Shown here: piece after piece, positions 8,374-27,335 of the stretch | Position numbering within the stretch: the first letter of the stretch is position 1 | How the letters are laid out: every line of letters starts with the position of its first letter | DNA from: Phycisphaerae bacterium | Lineage (GTDB): Bacteria > Planctomycetota > Phycisphaerae > UBA1845 | Length of the DNA stretch: 43,319 bases | NCBI GenBank assembly: GCA_029260215.1 | Contig: JAJDDQ010000043.1 | Span: 1-43,319, forward strand | Reading direction: 5' to 3' | Notes under the pieces: generated by a model | Databases searched by the model: none | What the model was told of the DNA's origin: nothing | Seen by the model: the letters and a program-made list of their open reading frames with translations, nothing else | Program-made: the position numbers and the translations under genes

Positions 8374-9114
8374 ATGAGCATTGCGAGACGGTTTGTCGGG
8401 AGGGTTTTGGCCTTAGTGTGCTTGTCGGCAGCAACGGCGGGTGCGGAGCCGGTGGGTCTGTTCGAGATTCTGCGACACGAGGTGAACGCGGAGGGCTCGG
8501 CCCAAATCTTCGACGGCGGCCCGGCGGATACGTTCGACTTCGATTTCGACCTACCGGGCCAAGTCTCCATCGGTACGGGTGCGTCGGATTCGACCGGACC
8601 GGGAGCCGGAGGAACGACCGCGGGTGCGGGATTCCGATCCGCCTTCGGTTCGGGTGGGCCTGGGATCTTCATCATGAGTACAGGTGTCACAGCCAGTTAT
8701 GTCGGCGGCACCCCGCCTTGGGGAGGCACCAGTGACACAACGATGGTTTCGATCATCGAGTTTGTCATGCCGGCGGAGCGTGCGGACTTCACCGTTGCGT
8801 TCAGGCGCGACTCGGTTGGGTTCTTTTCCCAATCGGGGTCGGTGTTGATGGAGAACATCACCGCCAACCAGGAGTTGTTTTTCGCAAACGACTCACTCAC
8901 TTTTCTGGGTTCGTTCGTCAGTAACGTCGGCGATGTCATTCGTGTGACAAGTGACTTTTCGGCACAGGGAAACGTCCCTGCCGATGTCTTCGGAGTCTTC
9001 GGTGGCCTAGTCAGCCTGGACGTCGACGTAATCGTTCCTGAACCGGCGAGCGTCGGATTCCTGGGAATAGGAGCAGTATTTTGCCTATCGGTCCGCAGGC
9101 GCGGGCGCCGGTAG
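8374..9114 (+). CDS. PEP-CTERM exported protein, tandem paralogue 2
   Basis: The product has 246 residues and is a close paralogue of the gene ending at 8262. The start at 8374 (MSIARRFVGRVLALVCLSAATAGAEP) has GGGAGAG eight bases upstream. The untranslated leader 'GAGCGGGAGAG' is also shared with paralogue 1, so the duplication included the ribosome-binding site. The protein ends with VPEPASVGFLGIGAVFCLSVRRRGRR, a standard PEP-CTERM tail with the Arg cluster at the very end, unlike paralogue 1. The two copies differ mainly in a Gly/Ser/Thr-rich region around residues 55-110. Expected fate: export by Sec, then processing and anchoring by an exosortase, which is not in this window. Confidence 0.87.
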   Translation: MSIARRFVGRVLALVCLSAATAGAEPVGLFEILRHEVNAEGSAQIFDGGPADTFDFDFDLPGQVSIGTGASDSTGPGAGGTTAGAGFRSAFGSGGPGIFIMSTGVTASYVGGTPPWGGTSDTTMVSIIEFVMPAERADFTVAFRRDSVGFFSQSGSVLMENITANQELFFANDSLTFLGSFVSNVGDVIRVTSDFSAQGNVPADVFGVFGGLVSLDVDVIVPEPASVGFLGIGAVFCLSVRRRGRR

Positions 9115-9180
9115 GCAGACTTTCAAACTTACGTTTTCGTTTTTTTCTTAGTTTCCGCATGGAAAGAAAGGATGTGTGCC

Positions 9181-11780
9181 ATGCAAGCGAGAAATGTACG
9201 CGCACTGTGCGCGGGCAGCGTATTGGGTATCGTGGGACTTTGCGGCCCACCGGTACAAGCTCAAACGACGTGTTACGTGGACGACAGTCAGACGGTGAAC
9301 CCTCAGACAGGAGTAAGTTGGAACAATGCCTACACGGATTTGCAGAACGCGTTGGATGACACCTGAGGTATCATTCGCGTCGGGCAGGGAACGTACGTAC
9401 CCAGCGTAAACCTGCCCGCCCTGCCGAACGACCCCAGCGGGAAGTCGTTCCTGATGAAGCAAGGTCTGGAGATTTACGGCGGGTATGCAGGGTTCGGCGC
9501 ACCGGACCCCGACGCGCGGGACACGGACATCTACGAGACGATTCTCAGTGGTGACCTGAACGGGGACGACCCGCTCACCGCTGACAACGCCTTTCACGTG
9601 CTCACCGCCATGAGTGTCGGCTTGACGCTCGACGGGTTGATCATCGAGGCTGGCCACGCCTTCGGAGACCTGGCCCGCAGCGATGACGAGGGCGGCGGAC
9701 TTTATGCCGACAAAGCAAACATTTTCGTGTTTGACTGTGTGTTCCGTAACAACACGGCGGCCCGACGGGGCGGGGCGGTCACCACCGAAGGTCAGGGTGT
9801 GCTCCTGACTGCTCCCAAGTTCACGCAGTGCGACTTTGTGGATAACACCGTTGCCGGCAACATAGGGGGTGGTGGTGCGGTCGCGGCGAATCAGACATCA
9901 CCGGATTTCACAGACTGCCGGTTCGATGGAAACAGGGGATGGCGCGGTGGAGCATTGAACTTCGAGTTTTTCGGCGTCGCGGGAGATGTCGAAATTACCG
10001 ATTGCACATTCATTGGTAACAGAGGCATTGTCGCGGGCGGGGCGATTCATTCGGACGCGGGGCAGTACTTCGATGAATCACCCGCACCGGAGGGGACTTT
10101 CTTCGACGTCCGTTCCTGCGCATCCGGCGGACCGATTTCTTCCGAAACCGAGCCACGAATCTCGATGCCGACGGGGGTGCGTTCTACATGCAGGGGCGGA
10201 CGGCGCGCTTCGAGAACTGCCGGTTCAACGGCAACTTCGCGGACGGGGAGGGCAGCGCCATTTACATGATCGGTTCGGATGAAGAGGCTGCACAATTCGT
10301 TACCGTCCCCGCGTTGCGTGCCATCAACTGCCTGTTCAGCGGGAACACGTCCAACGGCAATTCGACGCGCACGGTGTACCTGACCGAGTGGCCTACCGGG
10401 ATCGGCGGTACCTATTTCAATGACGCCACGTTCTGGTTCCACAACAACACGTTCAGCCGGAATCTGACGGACGTGGACCTTTCGTCGAAGGCGGCGGAAG
10501 TGAAGGTGGCGCGCGGGGACGCCAAGTTTCGGAACTGCGCCTTCTGGAACGACGACGCGGCCTACGACGCGGTGGACGGAATTACGGTTCAGGTGAACGA
10601 CGCGACGGCCGATTTTGGGAACTGTGTTATTGAGGGCGTGACTTCTGCGTTTTACACGCCGGCTGAGATCACTGACCTCGGTGCCAATCTCGCGACCGAC
10701 CCGACGTTCGTGGATTCGGACGGGGTGAACGACACGCTCGGCGACGCGGACGACAATCTGCGACTGCAAGCCGCCTCCCCAGCCATCGCCACCGGGGCGA
10801 ACGGCTTCTTTCCTTTGGATCTGTACGACATTGACGAGGACGGGATCACGGACGAGTGTTTTCCGGTGGACCTGGACGACTGCGTGCGTGTGGTTGTTTC
10901 CGCATGCACCGGCGATGTTGATATCGGCGTGTACGAGTTCGATGCGGCGACGGATTCGACTGGCACGTGCGACGCGGCTTTGTTCGCTGCGGGCGATATG
11001 GACAACAACGGCATCTTGGACGTTTGCGATGTATTGAACTCGGGTATCGACTGCGACGGCAACGGTTTGTTGGATGCGTGTGAACTGGCTGAGGACATCT
11101 TCAACCTGCTCGATCAGGACGGCAGCGGCGGGCTTGACGTGTGCCAGCCATTCCTGGCGCCCGGGTCTCAGGGTGTTTCGTTTTCCGATCATGCGTTTTC
11201 GGGCTACATCGACCCGCGCTGGGAAAGCGACGATGGAGTCAACTTCGAATTCGGCATTTCGCAAGTCGCGCTGGTTTTCTCGGAGGCGATGATCGGTTCG
11301 GCAAACTGTGCGGGTTCCGTCTGCCCGGACAACTTCATCGTGACCGTCACGGGTTCGGGTTCGGCACCGACGGTGACATCCGTGGACGATTCCGCCAACC
11401 CGAAGATCGTGCTCACACTCAGCGGTATCATCCCGCTCAAAGAGTGGACCACGATCGAAGTGAAGAACAACGTCGTCTCCGCGGCCACGGGTCGCCCCAT
11501 TCTGAAGGCGGGACACAACGACCTGCTGGACGTCGGGTACATGCCCTGCGATGTGGATCAGGACGGCACGTGCGGCCCGTTTGATATCATCAAGATACGG
11601 CAATACATCACGAACGGCGTTCAACCTTCAATTGGCACGCCGGAGGATTATGCCGATATCAACCGCACCAGTGCCCTCGACCCACAAGACGTCATAAGAT
11701 TCCGCCAGTTGATCAACGGCGTCAGCCCGCCCGCGACGCAAACGTGGGGCAATGTATCGATGAACAACCCACAACCGTAA
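9181..11780 (+). pseudogene. Parallel beta-helix / dockerin exported protein, broken by a stop and a frameshift
   Basis: One protein of about 865 residues is spread over two frames. It starts at the ATG at 9181 (AAGGA eight bases before) with a signal peptide ending near PVQAQTT. A TGA at 9364-9366 interrupts the frame inside the usual 'LQNALDD...IRVGQGTY' segment; reading through it restores the family sequence. Near 10118-10122 one base is missing: the frame ending in SSETEP must shift to continue as RRTDFFRNRATNLDADGG. The body has right-handed beta-helix repeats (G-G-A-x...F-x-N-C-x-F-x-x-N). The end has Asp-rich calcium loops and a dockerin-like pair (DVDQDGTCGPFDIIKIRQYI and DPQDVIRFRQLI). 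It is either a decaying gene or contains assembly errors; two independent lesions favour decay. Confidence 0.75.
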
Positions 11781-14948: not shown

Positions 14949-17900
14949 TCAGGGTGCTATGTGGATTCGCGGGTTTACGAACTCGAAATCGTCCAGATCG
15001 CCACGGCAACTGACGGCTTCGATGACGATGACGTTTGGGCCTGCGTGCAGCAGTGCGATGTCGAAGGGGATGGCGAATTCACCGAAACTTCCGTCCCTTG
15101 GGGATTCCTGCAAAGTTTCGAAACGCCTCCCGTTGAAGTAGATGCGGTGCGGGCATTGCACGCCCTTGGTCATGATACGCAACTCCGCCGGCGCGTTGCC
15201 CGACTGAAGCGGCTCGGCTGGGACCGTGAAGGTGGCTTCGTAGACTCGGCCTTCGGACTCCTTTTGAAACTGGCTGTTGACCCGCCCCTCGAAGCGATCA
15301 TTGCCCAAATGGTGTACATCGGGAACGGTCTCGATGGCGATGATGTCCTCGCGTGCGGGATCGAGCGCGAAATCGACTTCAAAGGTACGCCCCTCCACAT
15401 CTGCGGCTGATATGTTGGCTGTCCTCGGGACGTAGCCTTCGTGGTACGCGGACAGCGCGAAATAGTCCGGAACCTCGGGCGTGAACAGAATATACACACC
15501 GTCGCGGGCGGATCGGACTTCGAGTGGTTCCTCGCCGGGCAGATTCAGACGGACGACGGCTCCGTACAGCAGTTGGCCTGTATCGGCATCGGTGACGCGG
15601 CCGCGTACAACGCCCATCGCGTCTTCCATGTCCGGCTGAGCCTGCATCGGCGGGTAGCGGTAATAGGTTTCGAGCGTCAGGGTGTTCAACGCGGTTTGGT
15701 AGACGCGACCGTGGACGCCGGACCATTCGTCGGACGGATCCCAACTGCCGGAGCGTTTTTGGTCTTTGTGCTGATGGGCGAGCAACTCCCGAGTCAGCGC
15801 GTCATTCCAGCGTTGCCACGCAGGCCCTTTGATCTGGTGCAAAGCGAGCGTCGCGAAGTGCCAATAGTAGGTGTCGGCTGACGTTTCCCACTCCGGCAAC
15901 CGGTCCATGATGAACGATACGGCTTCGTGTGTACGCCGGTCGGTCGGCGATCGCCCCAGCAGACTTTGTGCGAACAGGCCCTCAGCCGTCATGCCGGCGG
16001 TGGGTGTGCTGCCGGGTTCGTAGGCGTACAGCCCGCCATGCCGACCGGCTGCCGCGTTCTTCAGCCAATCGCGTGCGGACTGGAACGACGCGAACGGCAC
16101 GTCGATGCCGCCCGCGCGGGCGCAATGCAGTGCCAACGCCTGCCACCCGGTTACGGAAGTGTCGGCTGACTGATCCAGGGCGATGCCCCATCCGCCGGTG
16201 CGACGGTTGCGCGAGCTGTCGATAAACGCGACTGCTCTACGAAGCGGATGAAGCAAACGCACGTCCCCGGTCATCGCGAATGCCTCCGCCAATGCGAGCG
16301 CTGCGATTCCGTGGCTGTACATGGATTCACTGTCGCCAAGATTACCGTCGTCGGCCTGATGTTCGAGCAGCCAATCGAGGGCGCGGCTCACGGTTTGTGC
16401 GTAACGGCCGTCGTCAATATGTGTGTGATGCGCACCGAGAAACGCCAGCGTCGCAAGACCCGTGGTTGTCACATCGACGTCGATCTCGCTCGGGGCGTCG
16501 CATTGGTCACAAGTGGCGTCGAACTCGGCGGAGTCCCATCGACCGTCGGGGCTTTGATGGTTCGCCAGCCAGATCAACGCGCGGCGCACAGCCTCTTCGG
16601 TCTGATCGTTGCCGCCGATTTCCTCCAATGTCTGCTCGCGCTTTTCGGGTTGGCGGAGGGCGAACGGGTTGTCGTGTGCGAAGGTTTCCTGCGGCAGGCG
16701 AAGCCCGTCGAAGATCGCGGAGTCGGCTGGCTGCGCGGGTTCGTTGATGTCGCGGACGCGCAGAAGAGATTCCGAGAGCATTGGCGACGGGGCGAACGAA
16801 GCGTGGGCGACAACGTCCTCAGGAAGCGCGTCGACGAGAGACGTGTCCGCTGCGGTTGGATTCGCGGGACGGATCGCGGAATCGATGTGAACTTGCGACG
16901 GCGGCGGCGTATCCGTCAGATCGAGCACGGGCGAATCCATACGCACGCTGTCGAATCGCTTAGCCACCGAATGCGATGGCTGAGCACCGTCGGCCATCGC
17001 TCGCTCGACGTTGGAAATCGCTTCCGGCAGGTCGAGTTGGATATTGGCTGCCGGATCGGTCGCATCCTTCTTTGGCAGGGGGATGTGCCACGGTGCTGCC
17101 GTTTGTGCATCGGCCAGCGCATCGGGCCAATTGGCGACGCTGGTTTCCTGCTCGTTCGTGCCAGACGGTGACACCGGCGCGACGGCGGCCATTGGAATAG
17201 TCACGTGCGCTTCGTTTGACGCGGACAATGCCGGCGAACGGGGTGAATCAGGCGAAGCGGTAGCCGTAACTCCGGCTTCGGGTTCAGTCTGTGCGATCCG
17301 TGGTTCAGCCTGATTCGCGTTCGGTATGCGAAAATCGTTTTTCCAACGAGATAGCGGTGCTTGTGCTGAAACCGTCGCGATTGTCGGCATGGCTGGCGGG
17401 GCGGGCGCTTCACGCGATGCAACCGTATCGGTAAACGGGACGTCCGGTTCGATTCTGGAACGGTCGATGATCGCCTCGGGGCTTCGCGTTGAATCGATCG
17501 GCTGAACAGGCTCAGCCGCGCGAACGGCTGATCGCGAAGCCGGAATATCGGCGATCGGGCGATCCGATTCGACGGTTTCCGAAACTGTGTTTCGATCGCC
17601 CTCCGACGGTAAGACCAGGTCAACCGGCTTGGCGGGTTCCGTCGGTCTGTGGTCGTTTTCAAGCATCGCGGTGCGTGCGTCGGCGAGGTCAATAGCTGGG
17701 GCTGACTCGCGTGCGGATGCGTCCGTTTCGATTCGCTTGGAGAAATCGATCGGAGCGCGGTCAACAGTCAGTTGCACCGTCGACGCCGGGGCGTCGTGGT
17801 TGAGTTCATGCTCGACGCGCGTGTCTGTGGTCTCGGCGAATTCGGGCGTCTCCACATCCGTCAGTCGGCCGCGAATTTGTCCTGTGATTTCACCCGCCTG

Positions 17901-19205
17901 CACCGGAGAAGCCAGCACGACGCGCGTCCCGCCCCCGTGACGCAGCGAATCGGCGATGCCGGCTGACACTTCCCAAAACGCGAAAAGGAGCAGCAGCATC
18001 AGATGCGTCAGGAGTGACAGAAGGAGGCACTTGACCAGTAAGCTCAATCGACGATCGCGGGCCTCTCGCCATAGTGCCAGCAGCGCAAGCGCAGCAAGAA
18101 GCAGCAGGAGCAGCCAAAGCAGATTGATTCCGATGGCATCCCACCAGCCTGCCCAGTCGATCCCCGGTGCAGCGGTTTCGCTTTGTACGAAAACCTCGCG
18201 CGACGCGCTGTAGAAAATGTCGTAGCGATTTCGCTCGACGGTCGGCCCGTCCGATGCGGTGGCTGATCGATCCGAACTGAAGTAAAGCCCGAACCCGCCC
18301 ATGAGCAGTCCTGCGTCGAGTTCGTTGGCGGGCGTGTTGACGGTTACGCCCAGGTTTTCCACATCGATGTGTTTCCCATCGAAACGGCGCGCTCGATACA
18401 GGTCGAAACCGCCCGCTCCGCCGGGCCTGTCGGAAGCGAAGTAGAGAAAATCACCGAACGGGCTGACGGCCGGTGCGCCGTCGTTGTACGGCGTGTTCAG
18501 CGCGCGAATCGCTTCCGCTTCGCCGGGGCCTGCACCGGTTAGCACGGCTGCGTAGAGATCGTAATCGCGATGGAACAAGTCCTCGCGGACGGTCGCGGGC
18601 CAGGCTTCGGGATCGGGTTGTCGCCCGTCGTCCGGTCGCGGGCGATTCGATGCGAAATAGAGCACACCATCGTCGGGTGACAATGCCGGCCCGTATTCGT
18701 TGAACGGGCTGTTGATGTTAGGCCCGAGGTTGAGCGGTTCGTGCCAGCCGCTTGGGCCTTGATGTGCGACCCACAGATCGTACCCACCTTCACCTCCGAG
18801 ACGATCCGAGTAAAAGTACAGCGACTTTCCGTCGGCAGACGGTTGCGGGCCGAGTTCTTCGTATTCCGTGTTGATGCCGTTTACCGGCTTCGGCTCGGAC
18901 CAACCGTCAATCGTGCGTTCTGTGAAGAGGATATCCGCGTTTTGCCCTGCTTGGCCGCGTACGAAAAAGAGCGTCGATTCATCGGCTGAGATGCGCGGCT
19001 CGTAGTCGTCTATGGTCGAGTTGATCGTGTCGGGCAGGCGTGTCGGCGGTTGCCAGAGCACATCGCGCGGCTCGACACGATCGGTGGATTCGCGAATCGT
19101 CTCGCCATCGGTATAGACGCGGACGGTGCGAGGCCGAAGCATCCACGCTGTCGTGACAGCCGCGGTGGTTGCGAGAATCAGGATGAGCAGTGCGTACTTC
19201 TTCAA
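14949..19205 (-). CDS. Giant PD40-propeller / TonB-like helix / terpenoid-cyclase-like toroid membrane protein
   Basis: The product has 1418 residues. It starts at a TTG (19205) with AAGG nine bases upstream. An N-terminal membrane helix (about 5-22) is followed by a PD40-type beta-propeller (about 55-335; repeats such as GPALSPDDGVLYFASNRP). Two membrane helices lie at about 359-379 and 393-411; the second reads CLLLSLLTHLMLLLLFAFW and contains S397-x-x-x-H401, the spacing of the essential Ser and His of TonB. A low-complexity Pro/Asp/Ala linker spans about 430-860. Residues about 865-1190 form a squalene-cyclase/prenyltransferase-like toroid (ALIWLANHQSPDGRWDS, RALDWLLEHQADDGNLG). A carboxypeptidase-regulatory-like domain (about 1198-1285) and a C-terminal beta domain finish it. 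The toroid lacks the DxDD cyclase acid motif, so enzyme activity is unlikely. It lies 39 bases downstream of exbD and is probably that motor's partner. Confidence 0.8.
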   Translation of the reverse strand: MKKYALLILILATTAAVTTAWMLRPRTVRVYTDGETIRESTDRVEPRDVLWQPPTRLPDTINSTIDDYEPRISADESTLFFVRGQAGQNADILFTERTIDGWSEPKPVNGINTEYEELGPQPSADGKSLYFYSDRLGGEGGYDLWVAHQGPSGWHEPLNLGPNINSPFNEYGPALSPDDGVLYFASNRPRPDDGRQPDPEAWPATVREDLFHRDYDLYAAVLTGAGPGEAEAIRALNTPYNDGAPAVSPFGDFLYFASDRPGGAGGFDLYRARRFDGKHIDVENLGVTVNTPANELDAGLLMGGFGLYFSSDRSATASDGPTVERNRYDIFYSASREVFVQSETAAPGIDWAGWWDAIGINLLWLLLLLLAALALLALWREARDRRLSLLVKCLLLSLLTHLMLLLLFAFWEVSAGIADSLRHGGGTRVVLASPVQAGEITGQIRGRLTDVETPEFAETTDTRVEHELNHDAPASTVQLTVDRAPIDFSKRIETDASARESAPAIDLADARTAMLENDHRPTEPAKPVDLVLPSEGDRNTVSETVESDRPIADIPASRSAVRAAEPVQPIDSTRSPEAIIDRSRIEPDVPFTDTVASREAPAPPAMPTIATVSAQAPLSRWKNDFRIPNANQAEPRIAQTEPEAGVTATASPDSPRSPALSASNEAHVTIPMAAVAPVSPSGTNEQETSVANWPDALADAQTAAPWHIPLPKKDATDPAANIQLDLPEAISNVERAMADGAQPSHSVAKRFDSVRMDSPVLDLTDTPPPSQVHIDSAIRPANPTAADTSLVDALPEDVVAHASFAPSPMLSESLLRVRDINEPAQPADSAIFDGLRLPQETFAHDNPFALRQPEKREQTLEEIGGNDQTEEAVRRALIWLANHQSPDGRWDSAEFDATCDQCDAPSEIDVDVTTTGLATLAFLGAHHTHIDDGRYAQTVSRALDWLLEHQADDGNLGDSESMYSHGIAALALAEAFAMTGDVRLLHPLRRAVAFIDSSRNRRTGGWGIALDQSADTSVTGWQALALHCARAGGIDVPFASFQSARDWLKNAAAGRHGGLYAYEPGSTPTAGMTAEGLFAQSLLGRSPTDRRTHEAVSFIMDRLPEWETSADTYYWHFATLALHQIKGPAWQRWNDALTRELLAHQHKDQKRSGSWDPSDEWSGVHGRVYQTALNTLTLETYYRYPPMQAQPDMEDAMGVVRGRVTDADTGQLLYGAVVRLNLPGEEPLEVRSARDGVYILFTPEVPDYFALSAYHEGYVPRTANISAADVEGRTFEVDFALDPAREDIIAIETVPDVHHLGNDRFEGRVNSQFQKESEGRVYEATFTVPAEPLQSGNAPAELRIMTKGVQCPHRIYFNGRRFETLQESPRDGSFGEFAIPFDIALLHAGPNVIVIEAVSCRGDLDDFEFVNPRIHIAP

Positions 19206-19244: not shown

Positions 19245-19661
19245 TCAGGGTTCGAGAACGGTGTCGAGGTACGGCTCCTGCACGCCGCCGCCCTTGCACA
19301 CGTCAAGCACGCGCACGATGTTTGCGTAGACCGTGCCGCGGTCGCCGCGCACGGTTACTTTTTGCTCGGGGTTGTTGCGGACAGCCTGCACGATCATGTC
19401 GCGCAGCTCGTCCGTCTCCATGCGCCGGCCGGCGACCACGATGCCACCGTCGGCATCCACGTTCACGATAATCTCGCGTAACGCTCCGCTGATCGGGCCG
19501 GAAGACGACGCGAAGGGCAGTGCGATTTGCATTTCGCGTTCGTTCTTTTGAAACGTGGTCGCGACCAGGAAGAAAATCAAAAGCAGGAACACCATGTCGA
19601 TGAGTGGTGTGAGTTCGATGGCCATCACCGGTGTGCCTTCTGCGTTGTTCTTGATCAACAT
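19245..19661 (-). CDS. exbD: ExbD/TolR-type biopolymer transport protein
   Basis: The product has 138 residues, the usual ExbD size. A single N-terminal membrane helix contains the essential Asp (D22 in IELTPLIDMVFLLLIFFLV), which carries protons in the ExbB-ExbD motor. The periplasmic domain (about 60-138; VNVDADGGIVVAGRRM, KVTVRGDRGTVYANIVRVLD) is standard for the family. The start at 19661 has GGAGG nine bases upstream. exbB lies upstream, separated by a 166-base gap containing a dispersed repeat; the 1418-residue TonB-like protein follows after 39 bases. The context points to an energised envelope complex rather than a standard TonB system, since no TonB-dependent receptor is nearby. Confidence 0.92.
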   Translation of the reverse strand: MLIKNNAEGTPVMAIELTPLIDMVFLLLIFFLVATTFQKNEREMQIALPFASSSGPISGALREIIVNVDADGGIVVAGRRMETDELRDMIVQAVRNNPEQKVTVRGDRGTVYANIVRVLDVCKGGGVQEPYLDTVLEP

Positions 19662-19827: not shown

Positions 19828-20643
19828 CTAGGCCGTCACCGGTTCGGAATGAACTTCGGACGACTCTTTCTGCGATTGGCCGTTCTGTCCTGTGGGTTCA
19901 GGGTCGCTTGGGCGCGTGCTGCCGGATCGGCCGTGCGTTTCGATGAAATCGACGGTCATGAGATCAATCTCCAGCACGAGCGAATCGATTTTCGCACTCA
20001 CACCGTGGTAGGCGACGAGCACTGGAATCGCGAGCAGCAGGCCTGCGGCTGTTGTGATCATCGCTTCGTAAATGCCTTTGGCGAGCAGTTCCGTTTTGCC
20101 GAGTGCTTCGCCGGAGGTGGCCACCGTTTGAAACGCTTCGATCATCCCGAAAATCGTACCGAGCAGGCCCATCAGGGGCGCGATCGCTCCGATGACCATG
20201 AGCAGGCGGAGGTATCGTCGCAGCTTGAGCACTTCGCGTTCGCCAGCGTCGGTGATGTGTTTTTCGAGAAGCTCGACCGGTTCGTCGAGGCGTTTGATGG
20301 CCGTCGCGAAAATGCTCGCCACGCAACTGCCGTTCTTGCGGCAATACTCGATCGCGTCATCGCGATTGAGGCCATCTTCGGCCAAGACATTTTCCAACCC
20401 GTCCCGAAATTTCGGCGGAATGACGCTCGAGCGCCGCAGCGTCATCATGCGCTCCGCCACCACCGCCATCGCAATAAGCGAGCAGAGCAGGATCGGCACC
20501 ATCATTGGGCCGCCCTTGAGCACGAAATCCCAGACCGACTGCACCTGCAACGACATGTTGGCTGACTCGCCCGAAGCGGTCGAACCGGTGTCAGCCTGCG
20601 CTAAAATTGAAGCACAGATAGCCACTGCACCTGGAATCATCAT
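19828..20643 (-). CDS. exbB: MotA/TolQ/ExbB proton-channel family protein
   Basis: The product has 271 residues. There is a hydrophobic N-terminus (signal-like, MMIPGAVAICASILAQA), as in many planctomycete ExbB proteins, and then three membrane helices (about 44-65, 148-171, 193-213). The family core is intact: MVIGAIAPLMGLLGTIFGMIEAF with T163, and IYEAMITTAAGLLLAIPVL with the conserved Glu E193 and T198, which correspond to E. coli ExbB Glu176 and Thr181. ExbB pentamers surround ExbD and use proton flow to drive a TonB-like partner. The start has AGGAG nine bases upstream. The C-terminal tail (about 240-271) is Ser/Glu/Pro-rich and probably cytoplasmic and disordered. The TPR gene is 65 bases upstream. 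Confidence 0.92.
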   Translation of the reverse strand: MMIPGAVAICASILAQADTGSTASGESANMSLQVQSVWDFVLKGGPMMVPILLCSLIAMAVVAERMMTLRRSSVIPPKFRDGLENVLAEDGLNRDDAIEYCRKNGSCVASIFATAIKRLDEPVELLEKHITDAGEREVLKLRRYLRLLMVIGAIAPLMGLLGTIFGMIEAFQTVATSGEALGKTELLAKGIYEAMITTAAGLLLAIPVLVAYHGVSAKIDSLVLEIDLMTVDFIETHGRSGSTRPSDPEPTGQNGQSQKESSEVHSEPVTA

Positions 20644-20708: not shown

Positions 20709-23700
20709 TCAACGCCCCGGCAACCCGCCGGCGGACACGACTTCCAGTCGCTTGCCTGCCAGCTTGGCCCACTTCGATTCGGAAAACCGGCTCGCGACTT
20801 CCTGAAACTGCCTGCGCGCTTCGACAGGTTGGCCCAGCTCTTCGAAACATCGCCCCGCCTCAAACAACGCAGCCGCACTCCACTCCGGGTAGCCGTAGTG
20901 AATGTCCACGCCGATCAGCTCGCGAACCGCGTCTTTGTATTGCTTTCTCGCGAAGAGGCACTCTCCGATTTGAAACTGTGCCCGCGCCGCCGTCGGCCCC
21001 TGATGACGCTCGACTACCGGTTTGTAGGCTTTGATCGCGTCGTCGTACCGTCTCTGATTTTCGCGTGCCCAACCCAATCCGAACTGTGCCTGAAACCACA
21101 GGTCGCGATCGGCGAAGTGGTCGAGATATCGCGTGAATGTTTCCTCGCTCTTGGCCCACTCCTGGGCAGAGGCCTGACACTCACCGAGTCGAAGCAGGGC
21201 GGCTGGACAGGCGGGGTCGGCGGCGTATCGCTCCGTCACGCGCTGAAAATGCACTCGGGCACGTTGTGTCGCGTTTGTCTTGTACAGAGATTCACCGCAA
21301 AAATAACCGGCTGACGCAGCCAACGTGCTCGCCGGGAACGCGTTGAGGAATTCCTCCAGGCGAACGGCAGACTCGTCAAAACGCTTCAATTCGAACAGGC
21401 AGACGCCAAGCCGATACATCGCCTGCTCGCGAATGCCTTCGGGGACGCCGGTTGTGTTCGACATCAATCGTTGAAGCAACCCGTACGCAGCCTCAAACCG
21501 CCGCGCTTCCATTTCCATACCAGCCAGGTCGGCTGACGCGTAGACGGACACTTGCTCGCGCCCGTGCCGATCCAGTATTTCCCGGTACGATCGCTGCGCC
21601 GTTTTGGTCTTTCCGAGCTTGCGCGCGCACCACGCCTTTTCGTACAGAACCGCCGCAGCCAGTGCGTCGTCCAACTCATCAAACCCGCGTTTTTCCAGCT
21701 TTTTGACGGCTGCCAGAACGTCTTCGTGCCGGTCCTGCCGGGCGAGGGCGACAATGCGTTGGGCGCGAGCCTCATTGGCACGCGCGGACTTGCCGTAGCG
21801 ATCGATGTGGTTGTCGAAAACTTTCTCTGCCTCAGCGAACCTGTTCGCACTCAGCAACGCCTGTCCCTGAAACAACAGTGCGTCGCCAGCCTCTTTGCTC
21901 TTGCCGGTCATAGCCATCGCCATCTGATCGAAATGTCCGGCGGCGACATCGAATTGCTTCTCGCGCAGGGCGATGGTGCCAAGGTGATTGCGCACGTGCG
22001 GTTCGAACAACGACCCCGGCGATTGCGTCAGGACAAGATTGAACGATTTCTTGGCCTCCGCAAAACGATTCAGCGCCGACAGGCATTGCCCGCGCTCGAA
22101 CATCGCCTGCAAGCGATGCTCGCTGTTCTCGAAACGATTGATAATCACATCGAACGCTTCGATCGCCTCTTTGTGTCGGCTTTGTCGCATCCGAGAGATG
22201 CCGATCATCAGCCATGCGTCGTCGTCAGCCGGCGATTCGTCCTTCAATGAATCCCCGTTCGGTGCGATATTCACAAAGCGACGCAGGTACGTTTCGGACT
22301 CTTCCCAATCGGCCTTTTGGAAACTGATGTCTCCAAGCGCGAAGTACATCGAAGCGTATGCGGGCTTGTCGCCCAAGACTTCGGCGGCGGTGGCCAACTG
22401 CTTGGCAGCGCCCTCCGTCCTGCCCAGGCGGTACATCGCGATGCCCATGCGGTAGCGGGCCTTGCCAGCCTGCTCGCTTTCGGAATGTTTCTTCAGGTAT
22501 CGCTGGTAACTCTTGATCGCGTCTTCAAGCCGGTTGCGAAGAAAGTCATTCTCCGCCGCCAGAAACCGTACAGCCGCGACATGCCCACCCTTCGGAAACC
22601 GCCCGAGATATTCCGAACAGGCATCGAGACTTTGGCCAAAGTCGCCAAGCCGATGCAATGTCGCAGCCAACAGATGTTGAGCGTCGTCGGCCAGCGCGTG
22701 ATTGGTGAATCGATCGAGATAGTCTTTGAGCGCAGACACCGCCGCCTCCAACGTCTCCCCGCGCACAAGCGCTACCCCGCGATCGTAATGCATCTCAGCC
22801 GCAAGAATGCTGTCCGGGTATTTCGCGATGGCGCGGTCCAACCGGTCAGCCGCTTCAACAAAATCACGCTCGCGCAAGCGACACTTGGCCTGCCAGTACG
22901 CAGCCTGATCCGCGAGCGCCAGCGATTCCTGTGCGACGCGATCGAGCAACGTCATGGCCTCTGCGTTTTGCCCCGCGTCCCAATAAATCCGGGCGCGGAG
23001 CAGTCGCGCGGAATGAGCCACGTCGGCATCGGCAAACTCGCCAAGCAGACGGTCCATCAGCTTCGCCGCCTCAGCACCATCCCCGCTGTTGTGAATGATC
23101 GTCGCCAATCCCAGCAACGCTTGCGGTGTGTCCGTGGCGTCTCCCCGCGCAATCACGCGACGATAGTAGCGGGCAGCGTCGGCAGGCCGATTCAATTGAT
23201 GCAAACATTGGCCGGCCAACAATTGCGACCGTTGCGCGTACTCGTCGTCCGCAGCCCCGTCCGCCAGCTTCAGCAGGCGATCGGCAGCGGCTTGGTAATT
23301 GCCGCCCGCCATCTCCGCCAACCCGCCGTAATAATCGATGCGAGAACGGAGCGGGCTTTCAGGCCAATGCTCGCCTACAAGACGCGATCGCCGGGCGGCA
23401 TCTTTATAACGACCGGCGCGGTACAACGCCTCAACCAAACCAGCGGCTGCATCGTCGGCCAGCGCGTGCTCGCTGTACTTTTTGACCACGCGCTCAAACG
23501 CGGCGGCAGCCTTTGCATGCTCCCCAAGCGAGGCCCGACATCTGCCCAAAATCGTGCCGACCTCGGCTGCGAATTCGAATCGAGGCTGACGCACGAGTCG
23601 CTCCAACTGCACCGCAGCCTCCGCGTATCGTTCGAGACGAAACGCCGCGACAGACAGGCCGTAACGTGCGGTGGGCGACTGTTTATCATCCGGAAATGCG

Positions 23701-23894
23701 TCGAGGAAACGGCGGTATTCCTCAATGGCGAGATCGTGCAGGCCTCGGTTGAGAAACCCGTTTCCGCTTTGCAGTGATCGTCGAGCAGCCTCTTTCGAGC
23801 CGGCTTGTTCTTCGGGCGTACCGGCTTGAGTTGTGACCGATAACGCGAGTATCGCGAGACAGGCGGCGCGCAGAGCGAAACGGATCGCACACAT
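20709..23894 (-). CDS. Large exported tetratricopeptide-repeat protein
   Basis: The product has 1061 residues from the ATG at 23894, which has AAGGG upstream and begins a signal peptide (MCAIRFALRAACLAILALSVTTQAG). The frame is open to 23942, but that part lacks a ribosome-binding site. Almost the whole mature chain is TPR helices, roughly 25 or more units (A-x-Y-x-L-G...Y-A-D-A...F-P), including many of the 'YbgF/BamD' style such as AIEEYRRFLDAFPDDKQSPTA. TPR proteins of this kind are periplasmic scaffolds; YbgF (CpoB) works beside Tol-Pal and TonB-type machines. Position just upstream of exbB and exbD, and the same strand, suggest it is a periplasmic partner of that motor. No catalytic domain is seen. 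Confidence 0.87.
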   Translation of the reverse strand: MCAIRFALRAACLAILALSVTTQAGTPEEQAGSKEAARRSLQSGNGFLNRGLHDLAIEEYRRFLDAFPDDKQSPTARYGLSVAAFRLERYAEAAVQLERLVRQPRFEFAAEVGTILGRCRASLGEHAKAAAAFERVVKKYSEHALADDAAAGLVEALYRAGRYKDAARRSRLVGEHWPESPLRSRIDYYGGLAEMAGGNYQAAADRLLKLADGAADDEYAQRSQLLAGQCLHQLNRPADAARYYRRVIARGDATDTPQALLGLATIIHNSGDGAEAAKLMDRLLGEFADADVAHSARLLRARIYWDAGQNAEAMTLLDRVAQESLALADQAAYWQAKCRLRERDFVEAADRLDRAIAKYPDSILAAEMHYDRGVALVRGETLEAAVSALKDYLDRFTNHALADDAQHLLAATLHRLGDFGQSLDACSEYLGRFPKGGHVAAVRFLAAENDFLRNRLEDAIKSYQRYLKKHSESEQAGKARYRMGIAMYRLGRTEGAAKQLATAAEVLGDKPAYASMYFALGDISFQKADWEESETYLRRFVNIAPNGDSLKDESPADDDAWLMIGISRMRQSRHKEAIEAFDVIINRFENSEHRLQAMFERGQCLSALNRFAEAKKSFNLVLTQSPGSLFEPHVRNHLGTIALREKQFDVAAGHFDQMAMAMTGKSKEAGDALLFQGQALLSANRFAEAEKVFDNHIDRYGKSARANEARAQRIVALARQDRHEDVLAAVKKLEKRGFDELDDALAAAVLYEKAWCARKLGKTKTAQRSYREILDRHGREQVSVYASADLAGMEMEARRFEAAYGLLQRLMSNTTGVPEGIREQAMYRLGVCLFELKRFDESAVRLEEFLNAFPASTLAASAGYFCGESLYKTNATQRARVHFQRVTERYAADPACPAALLRLGECQASAQEWAKSEETFTRYLDHFADRDLWFQAQFGLGWARENQRRYDDAIKAYKPVVERHQGPTAARAQFQIGECLFARKQYKDAVRELIGVDIHYGYPEWSAAALFEAGRCFEELGQPVEARRQFQEVASRFSESKWAKLAGKRLEVVSAGGLPGR

Positions 23895-23944
23895 AATGGT
23901 TACCCTTGCGAGATGCTGTGGTTGATTGTTTCGGAAGCCCATTT

Positions 23945-24152: not shown

Positions 24153-26921
24153 CTAACGGTCGGCGCCCGCGTCGGGCGTTGACTGCATCGTTTCGACGCT
24201 CGCGCTCATGACCGCCCGGGCGACTTGTTCGAGCACGGACGGGGCAGACGAATCGTCCGCCTCGGCATCCCGCATGTCGACCTGACCGCCGATCACGCCA
24301 CGGCGCTGGAGTTGTCTGAGTGTCTCCATCTCACGCTGCTTTTTCTTTTGCAAGTTGTTCAGCTTGTCCTGTTCCACTTCTATCTTAAGCTTCTCCGCGC
24401 GCAAGCGTTCATTGACAATGTCGGACTTAGCCATCTCTCCCTCAGTGCTGGTGCGAAGTCGCTTCTGGACCACGCCCGAGCGACCGAACAAATTGTCATG
24501 CGTCTCGCCTTGAGCGTGACGTTGGCCTGTGGGGTTTATCATGTTCACGAACGCCCCGAAGATCAGTTGTTCAAGCTCGTTGCCGTTTACACGAATGTGA
24601 TCGTCCTGAGGGCTGACGTAGATCGGCACGTCGCTGCGCACCATCAGTTCGCTCATGGCTTCGAGCTTGTCGGACGGCAGCGCGAACGATTTGTACTCTT
24701 GCTCGCCGTTGCCGATCATGCGCACGAACGCATCAAATACGGCGTGCTCGAACGGTGTGCCTTGTACCTCAATCTCACCGTCGCCCGGTCGAATCATGAT
24801 TGGGACGCTGTTCAGCGACATGAGTTTCGTGAGGCCTTCCAATTTGCCGCTCGCAATCATGTATGAACGCCATGTTTTTTCGCTGTCCGCAATCACGATC
24901 GTCGTACTTGGCCGTGAAGGGGCCAATGGATTCCGTCCACGCGACGACCTGGGTTGCACCCGCCCGCGGCCCGCCCGCGACGCTGATCGTTTGGCGCTGG
25001 CCAAGCTTCGTCGAATCTCCGCCATCTGCGTATTCAGGCGGGCGATTTGCATATCCAGCTCCGCCAGCTCACGGTCGATTCCGTCCGATCGCGGATCATC
25101 GACGAGGATCGCAACCGGCGGCGCTACCGTGCCAACGACAACCGGCACCGGCGCGAATCGCGGCTGCGAATTCAAAATGTACTGCGGCATCGGCTCGGGC
25201 AACGGCGTGGCGTCCGGTGCGACGTATTTCAAAAGCGTCTTCGCTTGCGGAACGACCTGCTTCGATTTCTTGTGTTTCGGACACGAAAGCGCGGGCGTCG
25301 CAATCCAGCCGGCTGCACAAAGCGCCAGTGCAAGAACCAGACCGGAAGCCGAAAACCCCGGTCGTCGTGTGTCAGTCATCACCATTTTCAATCTCCTTGC
25401 GAATCGGGCGGCCCGCCCAGTCATCACACCAATGCCCGTCACCGGCGTCCGCTGCGACGCCGTCGTGACGAACTCTTTCGTTATCAACAAAGCCTCCGCG
25501 TACGCACGACGGTGACGGGGATAAAGCCAGGTCACCCACGTGTCGCAGCAGAACTCAGCCTCTTCATTCAAACGGCGGCGCACCCACCACACCAGCGGGT
25601 TCCACCAGTAAAAAGCCATCACAAACAACTGAAGCCAATTCACCCAATGATCCCGCCGGCGTATGTGTGCCAACTCGTGACACACCACCGCACGACGACC
25701 ATCCGCATCCAGGTCTCGCCAGAGCGCTTCCGGCAGAATCAGGCGAACACGACCGCCAAACCACACCATCGGCGACACACGCTCGGAAGTCATCAGCGTC
25801 TCGGGCACGCGACGCATACCCAAACCATTCGCACAATCTCTGACCAGGCGACGTACCGACTCCGGCGCAGGTCTCGCCAAGCGCATCCGGCGGCGGAACA
25901 TGCCCATCCGAACAGCCGCCGACAAGACACAAAGCAACGCGCCAAGACACCACACGCCGGACGGGAGCGGCTTCAACCCGCCGAGCACAACCCGCAAAGA
26001 CGCGAACCCCGCCACCCACGAGCCCCACGCTTCAGACGCCCGCACGCGCCAACCCAACACCACCGCCGGTTGCACACGTTCTGCGTCAACGACCGGCGGG
26101 GATGGTGCCTTCGCTTGCAGTTGCGGGGGTGACTCGTCAGAAACAACGTTCGAGGCAGCCTCGGTCGTTGGACCTGCGAAATCATCACGTATCACCCAAC
26201 GCGGCTCGCCCGCGATCTGTCGCGTCGCGTGTGCCAGCATTGTGTTGTCTTCAGGTTCGGTATCCCGTTCATCGATGTGCGTACGGCTCGATGGGATAGG
26301 GAGAAAAACAGGCGGCGAAGCTTCCCGAGCAGCCACGATTGGCGAATCGTCCCGACCCTCCGGCGACGGTTGAGCAGGCGATGGAGGCCGAGACTTTACT
26401 GCGGAGTCATCCGCAACGAACTCGCCCAGAGCGGGCCTGACCGATCGCGGCGCCTGGGCGAGCCTTTCCCGCGACCGCGATTCGAACCGACCCGCCCGTG
26501 GGCGAGTTACCGAAGGAGTCTGTCGGCCTGCGTTCCGTCGCGAAAACAGCCCTTTTTCTGTGGGAACCCGAGCCACGATCCGCTTGATGTCGTCAGCCGG
26601 CAAGTCGGGCAAAAGCGCATCAGCGTGCGCCGCCTTTTTGCTCAAACCAGACTCGCGAATCTCCTGCGATTCCCCGGGTTCCGTCAATTCGTGGTCCAAA
26701 CGCGCCGTCGGCCCCGGAATATACCTGCCGATCAAATCAGACGTGGGCAAAGCCGCCGCAACCAGAAACCAGACCAGAATGATGAGCCAGAAACTGTGAC
26801 GCGTCGTAGGCCTGCACGGCACGAAACGACAGATCAACAGCACCGCCAAAATCAACGGCACAGCGCCCAGCGTATTTCGCCATAAGATTTCGGTCGCCAG
26901 CGATACCCAATCGCCCATCAC
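24153..26921 (-). CDS. BlaR1-like M56 membrane metallopeptidase with an unusual C-terminal sensor region
   Basis: The product has 922 residues. M56 peptidases are zinc proteases in the membrane that typically cleave a BlaI/MecI repressor after sensing a signal. Membrane helices lie at about 15-32, 43-58, 322-338 and 433-448; a long Pro-rich disordered insert lies at about 70-290. The zinc motif is HELAH (415-419), with the third-ligand region NEEAEFCCD (452-460). A last helix (about 523-545) leads to an extracytoplasmic part. Instead of a penicillin-binding domain this part has a coiled coil (about 612-645), two tandem repeats of about 50 residues (686-736 and 744-795; SGKLEGLTKLMSLNSVPIMI and SDKLEAMSELMVRSDVPIYV), and a second coiled coil (about 838-875). 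The start at 26921 has GGGAG upstream; the BlaI-like gene ends 12 bases before it. Confidence 0.88.
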   Translation of the reverse strand: MMGDWVSLATEILWRNTLGAVPLILAVLLICRFVPCRPTTRHSFWLIILVWFLVAAALPTSDLIGRYIPGPTARLDHELTEPGESQEIRESGLSKKAAHADALLPDLPADDIKRIVARVPTEKGLFSRRNAGRQTPSVTRPRAGRFESRSRERLAQAPRSVRPALGEFVADDSAVKSRPPSPAQPSPEGRDDSPIVAAREASPPVFLPIPSSRTHIDERDTEPEDNTMLAHATRQIAGEPRWVIRDDFAGPTTEAASNVVSDESPPQLQAKAPSPPVVDAERVQPAVVLGWRVRASEAWGSWVAGFASLRVVLGGLKPLPSGVWCLGALLCVLSAAVRMGMFRRRMRLARPAPESVRRLVRDCANGLGMRRVPETLMTSERVSPMVWFGGRVRLILPEALWRDLDADGRRAVVCHELAHIRRRDHWVNWLQLFVMAFYWWNPLVWWVRRRLNEEAEFCCDTWVTWLYPRHRRAYAEALLITKEFVTTASQRTPVTGIGVMTGRAARFARRLKMVMTDTRRPGFSASGLVLALALCAAGWIATPALSCPKHKKSKQVVPQAKTLLKYVAPDATPLPEPMPQYILNSQPRFAPVPVVVGTVAPPVAILVDDPRSDGIDRELAELDMQIARLNTQMAEIRRSLASAKRSASRAGRGRVQPRSSRGRNPLAPSRPSTTIVIADSEKTWRSYMIASGKLEGLTKLMSLNSVPIMIRPGDGEIEVQGTPFEHAVFDAFVRMIGNGEQEYKSFALPSDKLEAMSELMVRSDVPIYVSPQDDHIRVNGNELEQLIFGAFVNMINPTGQRHAQGETHDNLFGRSGVVQKRLRTSTEGEMAKSDIVNERLRAEKLKIEVEQDKLNNLQKKKQREMETLRQLQRRGVIGGQVDMRDAEADDSSAPSVLEQVARAVMSASVETMQSTPDAGADR

Positions 26922-26933
26922 CGAATCTCCCGA

Positions 26934-27335
26934 TTAAGAGTCAGAATCCGTTTCCGTCTGATCGAGTTCGTCGATCAACGCGTGCAGCTTCTGTATCTCG
27001 TCTTTCGTGAACTGTTCCGAGCGGATCAACTGCAACACGAGCGGAGCAGCCGCACCGTCGTACAACTGACTGACCAGCGACTTCACCCGCGACTTCCGCA
27101 ACCGCGTCCGCGAAAGCGTCGCCTCAAAAACATACGCCAAACCCGTCTTGTCGCTCTGGACGAATCCCTTCTGCTCCAGCCGCGTCAAAAAGGTCTGCAC
27201 CGTCGTGTACGCCAACTTGCGACCCTGCTCATGCAGACGTTCCAAAACGTCGCGCACCGTACAAGGCCCCGCGCTCCACAAAACACGCAGGATCTGAAGT
27301 TCCGCCGTTCCTAGTTCGTATTGACGCTTGGCCAT
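26934..27335 (-). CDS. BlaI/MecI/CopY-family transcriptional repressor
   Basis: The product has 133 residues, the family norm. The N-terminal winged helix (about 5-75; LGTAELQILRVLWSAGPCTV, YTTVQTFLTRLEQKG) binds DNA as a dimer; the C-terminal helices (about 80-125) form the dimer interface. In the family, M56/BlaR1 proteolysis between these parts releases the operator. The gene directly precedes the M56 peptidase (12 bases), the standard pair. Two operator-like palindromes lie in its own promoter, so autorepression is expected. The target genes beyond this operon are unknown; the neighbours suggest envelope functions and not beta-lactam resistance. No beta-lactamase gene is in the window. 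Confidence 0.93.
   Translation of the reverse strand: MAKRQYELGTAELQILRVLWSAGPCTVRDVLERLHEQGRKLAYTTVQTFLTRLEQKGFVQSDKTGLAYVFEATLSRTRLRKSRVKSLVSQLYDGAAAPLVLQLIRSEQFTKDEIQKLHALIDELDQTETDSDS

Follow-up and report, generated by a model that had tools for sequence, protein, structure and literature searches.

A candidate proton-motive-force transducer with a built-in propeller and variable tips in a Phycisphaerae bacterium

A 43,319-nucleotide stretch of DNA from a Phycisphaerae bacterium of the Planctomycetota (GenBank assembly GCA_029260215.1, contig JAJDDQ010000043.1, positions 1 to 43,319; hereafter the window) encodes a protein of 1418 residues that is probably a proton-motive-force transducer, similar in kind to TonB and TolA but put together in a new way. 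A beta-propeller near the N terminus is followed by a pair of helices, a strand resembling the D-box of TonB, a long linker, and a tip made of a toroid and beta domains. Coupling of the second helix to ExbB and ExbD is well supported at the level of sequence, since a Ser/His pair is kept among relatives, the D-box-like strand stands at the spacing of TonB, and the genes for ExbB and ExbD lie upstream. A preliminary description of the window had proposed an ExbBD-energised protein, and the same three observations favour that idea. The coordinates it gave for the gene (14949-19205) are correct, and the strand is minus. The gene set, the architecture, the conserved residues and their spacing were established from sequence and models. 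The gene and the parts of its product are as follows.

14949..19205, minus strand: transducer gene, 1418 residues, TTG start, stop included
19140..19202, minus strand: N-terminal membrane anchor or signal helix, residues 2-22 (AlphaFold2 helix)
18186..19043, minus strand: PD40 beta-propeller, residues ~55-340 (Pfam PD40 E 3.3e-25; Foldseek; VIA-align)
18054..18155, minus strand: first transmembrane helix of the hairpin, residues 351-384 (alignment and AlphaFold2)
17931..18041, minus strand: coupling helix, residues 389-425, with S397 at 18017-18015 and H401 at 18005-18003 (alignments and AlphaFold2)
17904..17927, minus strand: D-box-like strand, residues 427-434 (conserved stretch and pattern search)
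16626..17903, minus strand: Ala/Pro-rich linker, weakly conserved, residues 435-860
15645..16610, minus strand: alpha/alpha toroid, residues ~866-1187 (Pfam, AlphaFold2, structure comparison)
14952..15623, minus strand: beta domains, CarboxypepD_reg-like and then a second beta domain, residues ~1195-1418

The layout proposed in the preliminary description was largely recovered. AlphaFold2 modelled the N-terminal part as a propeller with helices 351-384 and 389-425 (mean predicted local distance difference test score, pLDDT, 85.9), which together with the Pfam match places a PD40 propeller before the coupling helix. The C-terminal part was modelled as a helical toroid and then beta domains (mean pLDDT 91.6), in agreement with Pfam SQHop_cyclase_C at residues 866-1021 (E 2.2e-7); CarboxypepD_reg matched at 1200-1281 below the Pfam threshold. 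The long linker after the helix was also found, with Ala, Pro, Ser and Asp abundant and hardly any conservation at residues 431-860. Across 71 open reading frames (ORFs, duplicates included) the stretch between helix and toroid measures 265-916 residues, with a median of 434. The usual C-terminal fold of TonB is missing as described: Pfam gave no TonB_C (PF03544) match in the window protein, and the toroid and beta domains stand there instead. The protein likewise lacks the TolA C-terminal fold and any Pfam match to VWA. Canonical TonB was rejected as an identity.

The solved structures nearest to the propeller in Foldseek are TolB (E 6e-11). In VIA-align glycosidases outscore TolB (best Z 20.6 against Z 18.2), so "TolB-like" denotes resemblance only. 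Searching PDB sequences with the propeller-helix profile returned nothing at E 0.01. For the C-terminal model the first Foldseek matches were rhamnogalacturonan lyases (275 columns, TM-score 0.17), a hint from the model that may bear on the beta domains only; the VIA-align lists were dominated by toroid and propeller and hardly probed the C-terminal beta domains and helices. The loop joining the two helices is Arg-rich (RDRRLSLLVKC). By the positive-inside rule, which was used to orient the helix pair, this loop would be cytoplasmic and the second helix would run outward as in TonB.

Conservation of the coupling helix and the strand beyond it

S397 and H401 lie within KCLLLSLLTHLMLLLL, in the transmembrane helix modelled at 389-425, and form the motif SLLTH. 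Their TonB-like spacing, claimed from the single sequence, was borne out by relatives. The preliminary description had called for a homologue alignment; in one that joined the window protein to 32 propeller-helix ORFs, both residues were present in 33 of 33 sequences. H401 is one of 11 invariant columns among 440 in 75 sequences. Across 76 helix rows, selected by a helix-containing profile and not free of near-copies, the His was found in all 76 and the Ser in 73, with Ala in the other 3.

A second test picked proteins by the propeller. ORFs that scored 80 bits or more against the propeller profile and had ExbD as a neighbour were kept and duplicates were dropped (120 to 103); the loci had originally been found by whole-protein, propeller-pattern or propeller-helix queries, and membrane segments were taken as plain hydropathy runs in stop-to-stop frames. 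In 92 of these 103 non-redundant ORFs downstream of ExbD, a His stands in a hydrophobic run after the propeller. Where the helix was seen, the His is thus present in 92/92, and the residue four positions before it is Ser in 85, Ala in 6 and another residue in 1 (locus L144). The same procedure applied to hydrophobic segments of neighbouring proteins found S-x-x-x-H in 4 of 878 (M56 2/275, ExbB 0/513, ExbD 2/90). The pair could in principle be a coincidence of one Leu-rich helix, a type in which Ser is not uncommon. Set against the counts in the family and in the neighbours, a chance occurrence was rejected and has a negligible probability.

No helix was seen in the remaining 11 ORFs. Four are contig-cut genes (L126, L129, L132 and the second gene of L146), and seven are propeller-toroid genes (L136, L140, L143, L144, L146, L149 and L206) from Verrucomicrobia and kin, except L206, which belongs to the phylum of the window. 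Five of the seven loci go on to a second gene that carries the helix; the pieces covering L146 and L149 stop at this point. The preliminary description had expected homologues next to ExbBD to keep the Ser/His pair. For the His this holds wherever the helix was seen. The expectation fails for the Ser of seven helix-bearing ORFs and for the seven propeller-toroid genes beside ExbBD, five of which precede a helix-bearing gene. In these same seven loci the helix-less first gene after ExbD has its toroid inserted between propeller parts, and in L140 that gene (8845-11226) terminates in a single hydrophobic helix.

The D-box has been described as an alternating hydrophobic/hydrophilic strand just past the TonB helix that is held by the ExbD dimer (PMC10907165, Loll et al.). 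The peptide used in that account corresponds to TonB 43-54, with its first Ile at residue 45 (PMC10907165), and the coupling His of E. coli TonB is given as His20 (PMC12215075); the distance from His to D-box in E. coli TonB is therefore 25. In the window protein the conserved stretch 427-434 fits the published pattern. A five-residue pattern, less strict than the published form and drawn up once the conserved stretch was already known from 29 sequences, matched between H+18 and H+45 in 77 of 95 proteins. In 74 of these the match lies at H+25 to H+27; of 549 control windows in the linker, 88 matched. A D-box-like strand is thus present at TonB spacing as a pattern match, and its binding to ExbD is putative. 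Q443 is also invariant in the same 29 sequences.

Gene neighbourhood and motor proteins

The transducer gene is the last of a set on the minus strand that runs from BlaI through the M56 peptidase, the TPR protein, ExbB and ExbD.

26934..27335, minus strand: BlaI-family repressor (Pfam E 9.3e-33)
24153..26921, minus strand: M56 (BlaR1-like) membrane peptidase (Pfam E 2.8e-33)
20709..23942, minus strand: TPR protein with YbgF/CpoB-like repeats
19828..20643, minus strand: ExbB/TolQ, with S55 aligned to TolQ Ser28 and T163, T198 and P207 invariant (n=14)
19245..19661, minus strand: ExbD/TolR (Pfam ExbD E 1.3e-25; TolR best in NCBIfam, below its cut-off)

The transducer gene starts at a TTG, 39 bases beyond the final base of the ExbD stop codon. 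Because the genes adjoining its 3' end are on the plus strand, the transducer seems to be the last member of the set; by their sequences these plus-strand genes look bL21-, RidA-, ScpA- and TrpRS-like.

How widely is this arrangement kept? A scan of genome contigs with the window protein alone found no relative. Among 60 relatives, 56 had some match, a number of them toroid-only, and an alignment query against named genomes gave at least 79 loci. The loci listed come from Phycisphaerae, other Planctomycetota, Verrucomicrobia, Kiritimatiellota, Lentisphaeria and, in 13 cases, Bacteroidota (Mucilaginibacter, Pedobacter), where only the propeller profile matched, once with a TPR gene too. The nearest named relatives among the matches listed are Planctomycetota, including several metagenome-assembled genomes of Phycisphaerae. 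ExbB and ExbD, which the preliminary description had placed beside the transducer, lie upstream in most loci: ExbD precedes 120 of the 139 ORFs that reach 80 bits against the propeller profile. The other 19 comprise the 13 from Bacteroidota, 3 that begin at a contig edge or close to one (L138 twice, L147) and 3 after a TPR gene. The 103 non-redundant ORFs, which have ExbD upstream by selection, are accompanied by ExbB in 103 cases, TPR in 98, M56 in 49 and BlaI in 45, the last two counts being lowered because the flanks are short.

Of 147 genomes drawn from the phylum, 27 match the propeller-helix profile at E 1e-20, the genome of the window among the matches listed; in several, only part of the propeller matched. 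Of the 26 remaining genomes, 19 supplied twenty stretches, one of which (L194) comes from the same contig as L134; the seven left out are G190, which is contig-cut, and G092, G097, G118, G125, G166 and G177, which have a partial propeller. ExbB and ExbD are upstream in 20/20 and TPR in 19/20, with L206 at a contig end. Read by eye, the helix holds the His in 20/20 and the Ser in 16/20, with Ala in L194, L195, L196 and L211. In L115, two sets of TPR, ExbB, ExbD and transducer genes stand in tandem.

The motor proteins carry marks of their own. The best-scoring NCBIfam models for the stator are TolQ and TolR, below their cut-offs. TolQ Ser28 contacts TolA His22 in a cryo-electron microscopy structure (PMC12215075); ExbB S55 aligns with this residue, and Ser is found there in 97 of 99 ExbB sequences. 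ExbD holds PLIDMVFLLLIFF, with one Asp in the membrane. ExbB T163, T198 and P207, invariant in 14 sequences, correspond to pore and hinge positions of TolQ/ExbB (PMC12215075), which suggests proton flow. These residues bear on a static scaffold, in which ExbBD would hold the propeller and the TPR protein in place and pass no force to the tip. Such a scaffold would suit a family whose tip varies on an unchanging propeller, helix and stator. Against it, the length of the linker (265-916 residues) and the D-box-like strand at the spacing of TonB are more in keeping with a strand that is pulled, and the proton flow suggested by the ExbB residues also speaks against it; we regard the scaffold as unlikely.

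Tip modules

The best fold matches of the toroid in VIA-align are squalene-hopene cyclases (Z 27.5, 281 aligned, 2.7 A), followed by sugar-active enzymes of like fold (Z ~23). These matches would favour a membrane-tethered enzyme, with a terpenoid- or sugar-active toroid and an ExbBD that serves another neighbour. The DxDD string, however, is absent from 48 of 51 toroids and lies elsewhere than the expected place in the other three; a weak hidden Markov model alignment puts non-acidic residues at the DxDD site. At least 21 of 83 proteins have no toroid at all, and the His of the helix is kept regardless. A catalytic cyclase was rejected on the missing string and the toroid-free proteins, and the membrane-tethered enzyme is regarded as very unlikely, less likely than the scaffold. 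The toroid of the window protein shares the fold of squalene-hopene and other class II terpene cyclases and differs from them in lacking DxDD at the expected place and in being part of a membrane-tethered tip.

The tips were classified in 83 non-redundant proteins that, by the rule used, stay within their contig. Of these, 38 have only a toroid, 21 only beta domains, 20 have both and 4 have neither, two of the last being artefacts (L044, a split gene; L096, which ends 6 bases from the contig end). L054 has a broken frame and was counted as toroid only, though its second piece carries beta domains; L062 was counted as both with only a partial toroid. On a quick tree of the 83 proteins the tip labels need 18 changes, but the starred branches compel only 1 to 3 per label. 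Tip modules have thus likely been swapped repeatedly during evolution, as judged from these sequences. The toroid, missing in at least 21 of 83, is one exchangeable module and not the general working end. The earlier proposal of the toroid as the periplasmic working end therefore holds for part of the family only, 21 of the 83 having beta domains alone. In one protein (L208:11749-15318), a PDZ domain ends the tip after the toroid.

Toroids also occur apart from transducers. Toroid-only matches are found in many relatives, and the genome of the window encodes a separate, apparently exported protein with little beyond a toroid (L005:1483-2499). The toroid proteins of L072, L073, L074 and L075 (617-786 residues) have no propeller match and no ExbB or ExbD in the fetched piece; that of L075, the one scanned, carries HEAT repeats too.

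Proposed mechanism and known relatives

The mechanism we propose for the transducer covers docking, force, orientation, the partner, the biological role and the parts played by propeller and tip, and all of these are put conditionally. The N-terminal anchor would export the TolB-like propeller to the periplasm, and the helix pair would return through the membrane. The second helix would dock on ExbB via S397 and H401, and the ExbD dimer would catch the D-box-like strand just outside the membrane. The tip, whether toroid, beta domains or both, would be borne across the periplasm on the long disordered linker. Protons flowing through ExbBD could then pull on the tip, and a partner in the outer membrane or cell wall might be acted on in this way.

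Several observations weigh against a transducer of this kind. The second half of the full SHLS motif is mostly lost. The window protein has F408 at H+7 and E412 at H+11, and across the 76 helix rows H+7 is Phe in 30, Leu in 30 and Met in 9, and H+11 is Glu in 22, Gln in 15 and Gly in 9. The Ser is absent from 7 of 92 helix-bearing ORFs. The Trp with which ExbB/TolQ touches the His is found in 0 of 99 sequences, with Leu, Val, Met, Phe or Ile instead; the ExbB beside the vWA protein of the same genome, aligned by eye, likewise lacks it. The D-box-like pattern is missing in 18 of 95 proteins, and its loose wording after the fact counts on the same side. In L125, L133 and L137 the propeller gene directly follows the TPR gene with no ExbB or ExbD between them, which tells against a strictly fixed gene order; the other side of the propeller gene is beyond the contig end in all three. 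Finally, the tip varies across the family, and one common task is not evident.

The closest published relatives are vWA-tipped transducers of the Planctomycetes-Verrucomicrobia-Chlamydiae (PVC) group. As described, these carry an SHLS-type helix and lie beside TolQ/TolR-like and TPR genes, with a pair of TolR genes and the vWA domain after ~100 residues (PMC12204202). In them too, the C-terminal fold of TonB/TolA is replaced by another (PMC12204202). The window set differs in having one ExbD, and the window protein in its propeller and first helix before the coupling helix, its ~430-residue linker and its toroid and beta domains. With TonB, the window protein shares the S-x-x-x-H helix, a D-box-like strand 25-27 residues on, a Pro-rich linker and ExbBD genes. 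It differs from TonB in lacking TonB_C, in its propeller and extra helices and in a second half of SHLS that is mostly lost.

Likeness to Tol-Pal lies in the stator, which scores as TolQ/TolR, in a propeller that resembles TolB among others and in the YbgF/CpoB-like TPR neighbour. Unlike Tol-Pal, the propeller is fused to the transducer, the TolA C-terminal fold is absent and the set has no Pal gene. None of the six proteins that the set encodes matched OmpA/Pal in Pfam, and OmpA-family genes were found elsewhere in 40/40 genomes. TolB_N was found in 0 of the 40 genomes. Canonical TolB was rejected as an identity.

We recognised no description of a propeller-plus-toroid transducer in the open-access literature searched, and absence from print is not claimed. 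Its head and tips differ from those of TonB, TolA and the published vWA transducers, and its sequence marks make motor coupling testable. ExbBD motors may be a common socket to which different lineages attach different tools. Somewhat short of an even chance, and so only tentatively, the family may be an additional class of envelope transducer, driven by protons and spread across the PVC group, with a built-in TolB-like propeller, its own stator and TPR protein and a swappable tip. It might fill the role of Tol-Pal in these bacteria, or supply power for dealing with large molecules or wall polymers within a wide periplasm. Macromolecule entry into the planctomycete periplasm has been reported to be stopped by carbonyl cyanide m-chlorophenyl hydrazone (CCCP), by a mechanism described as unclear (PMC5394234). 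The window system could, speculatively, be a candidate machine for it.

The genome of the window also encodes a TonB, with TonB_C at E 5.5e-17 and the motif SILVH, beside a TonB-dependent receptor. Among 40 relatives, the plug domain of TonB-dependent receptors occurs in 20, and only 5 of those 20 have a TonB_C match (G000, G001, G010, G011 and G018). A vWA protein of the genome (L222) has SILYH and lies near ExbB, ExbD, a second ExbD-like ORF and a TPR gene. It would belong to the published vWA transducer family, with a gene order that differs from that given in PMC12204202. The third MotA_ExbB match of the genome resembles flagellar MotA by eye. The same genome thus has three helices with a Ser-x-x-x-His pair, in TonB, the vWA protein and the window protein.

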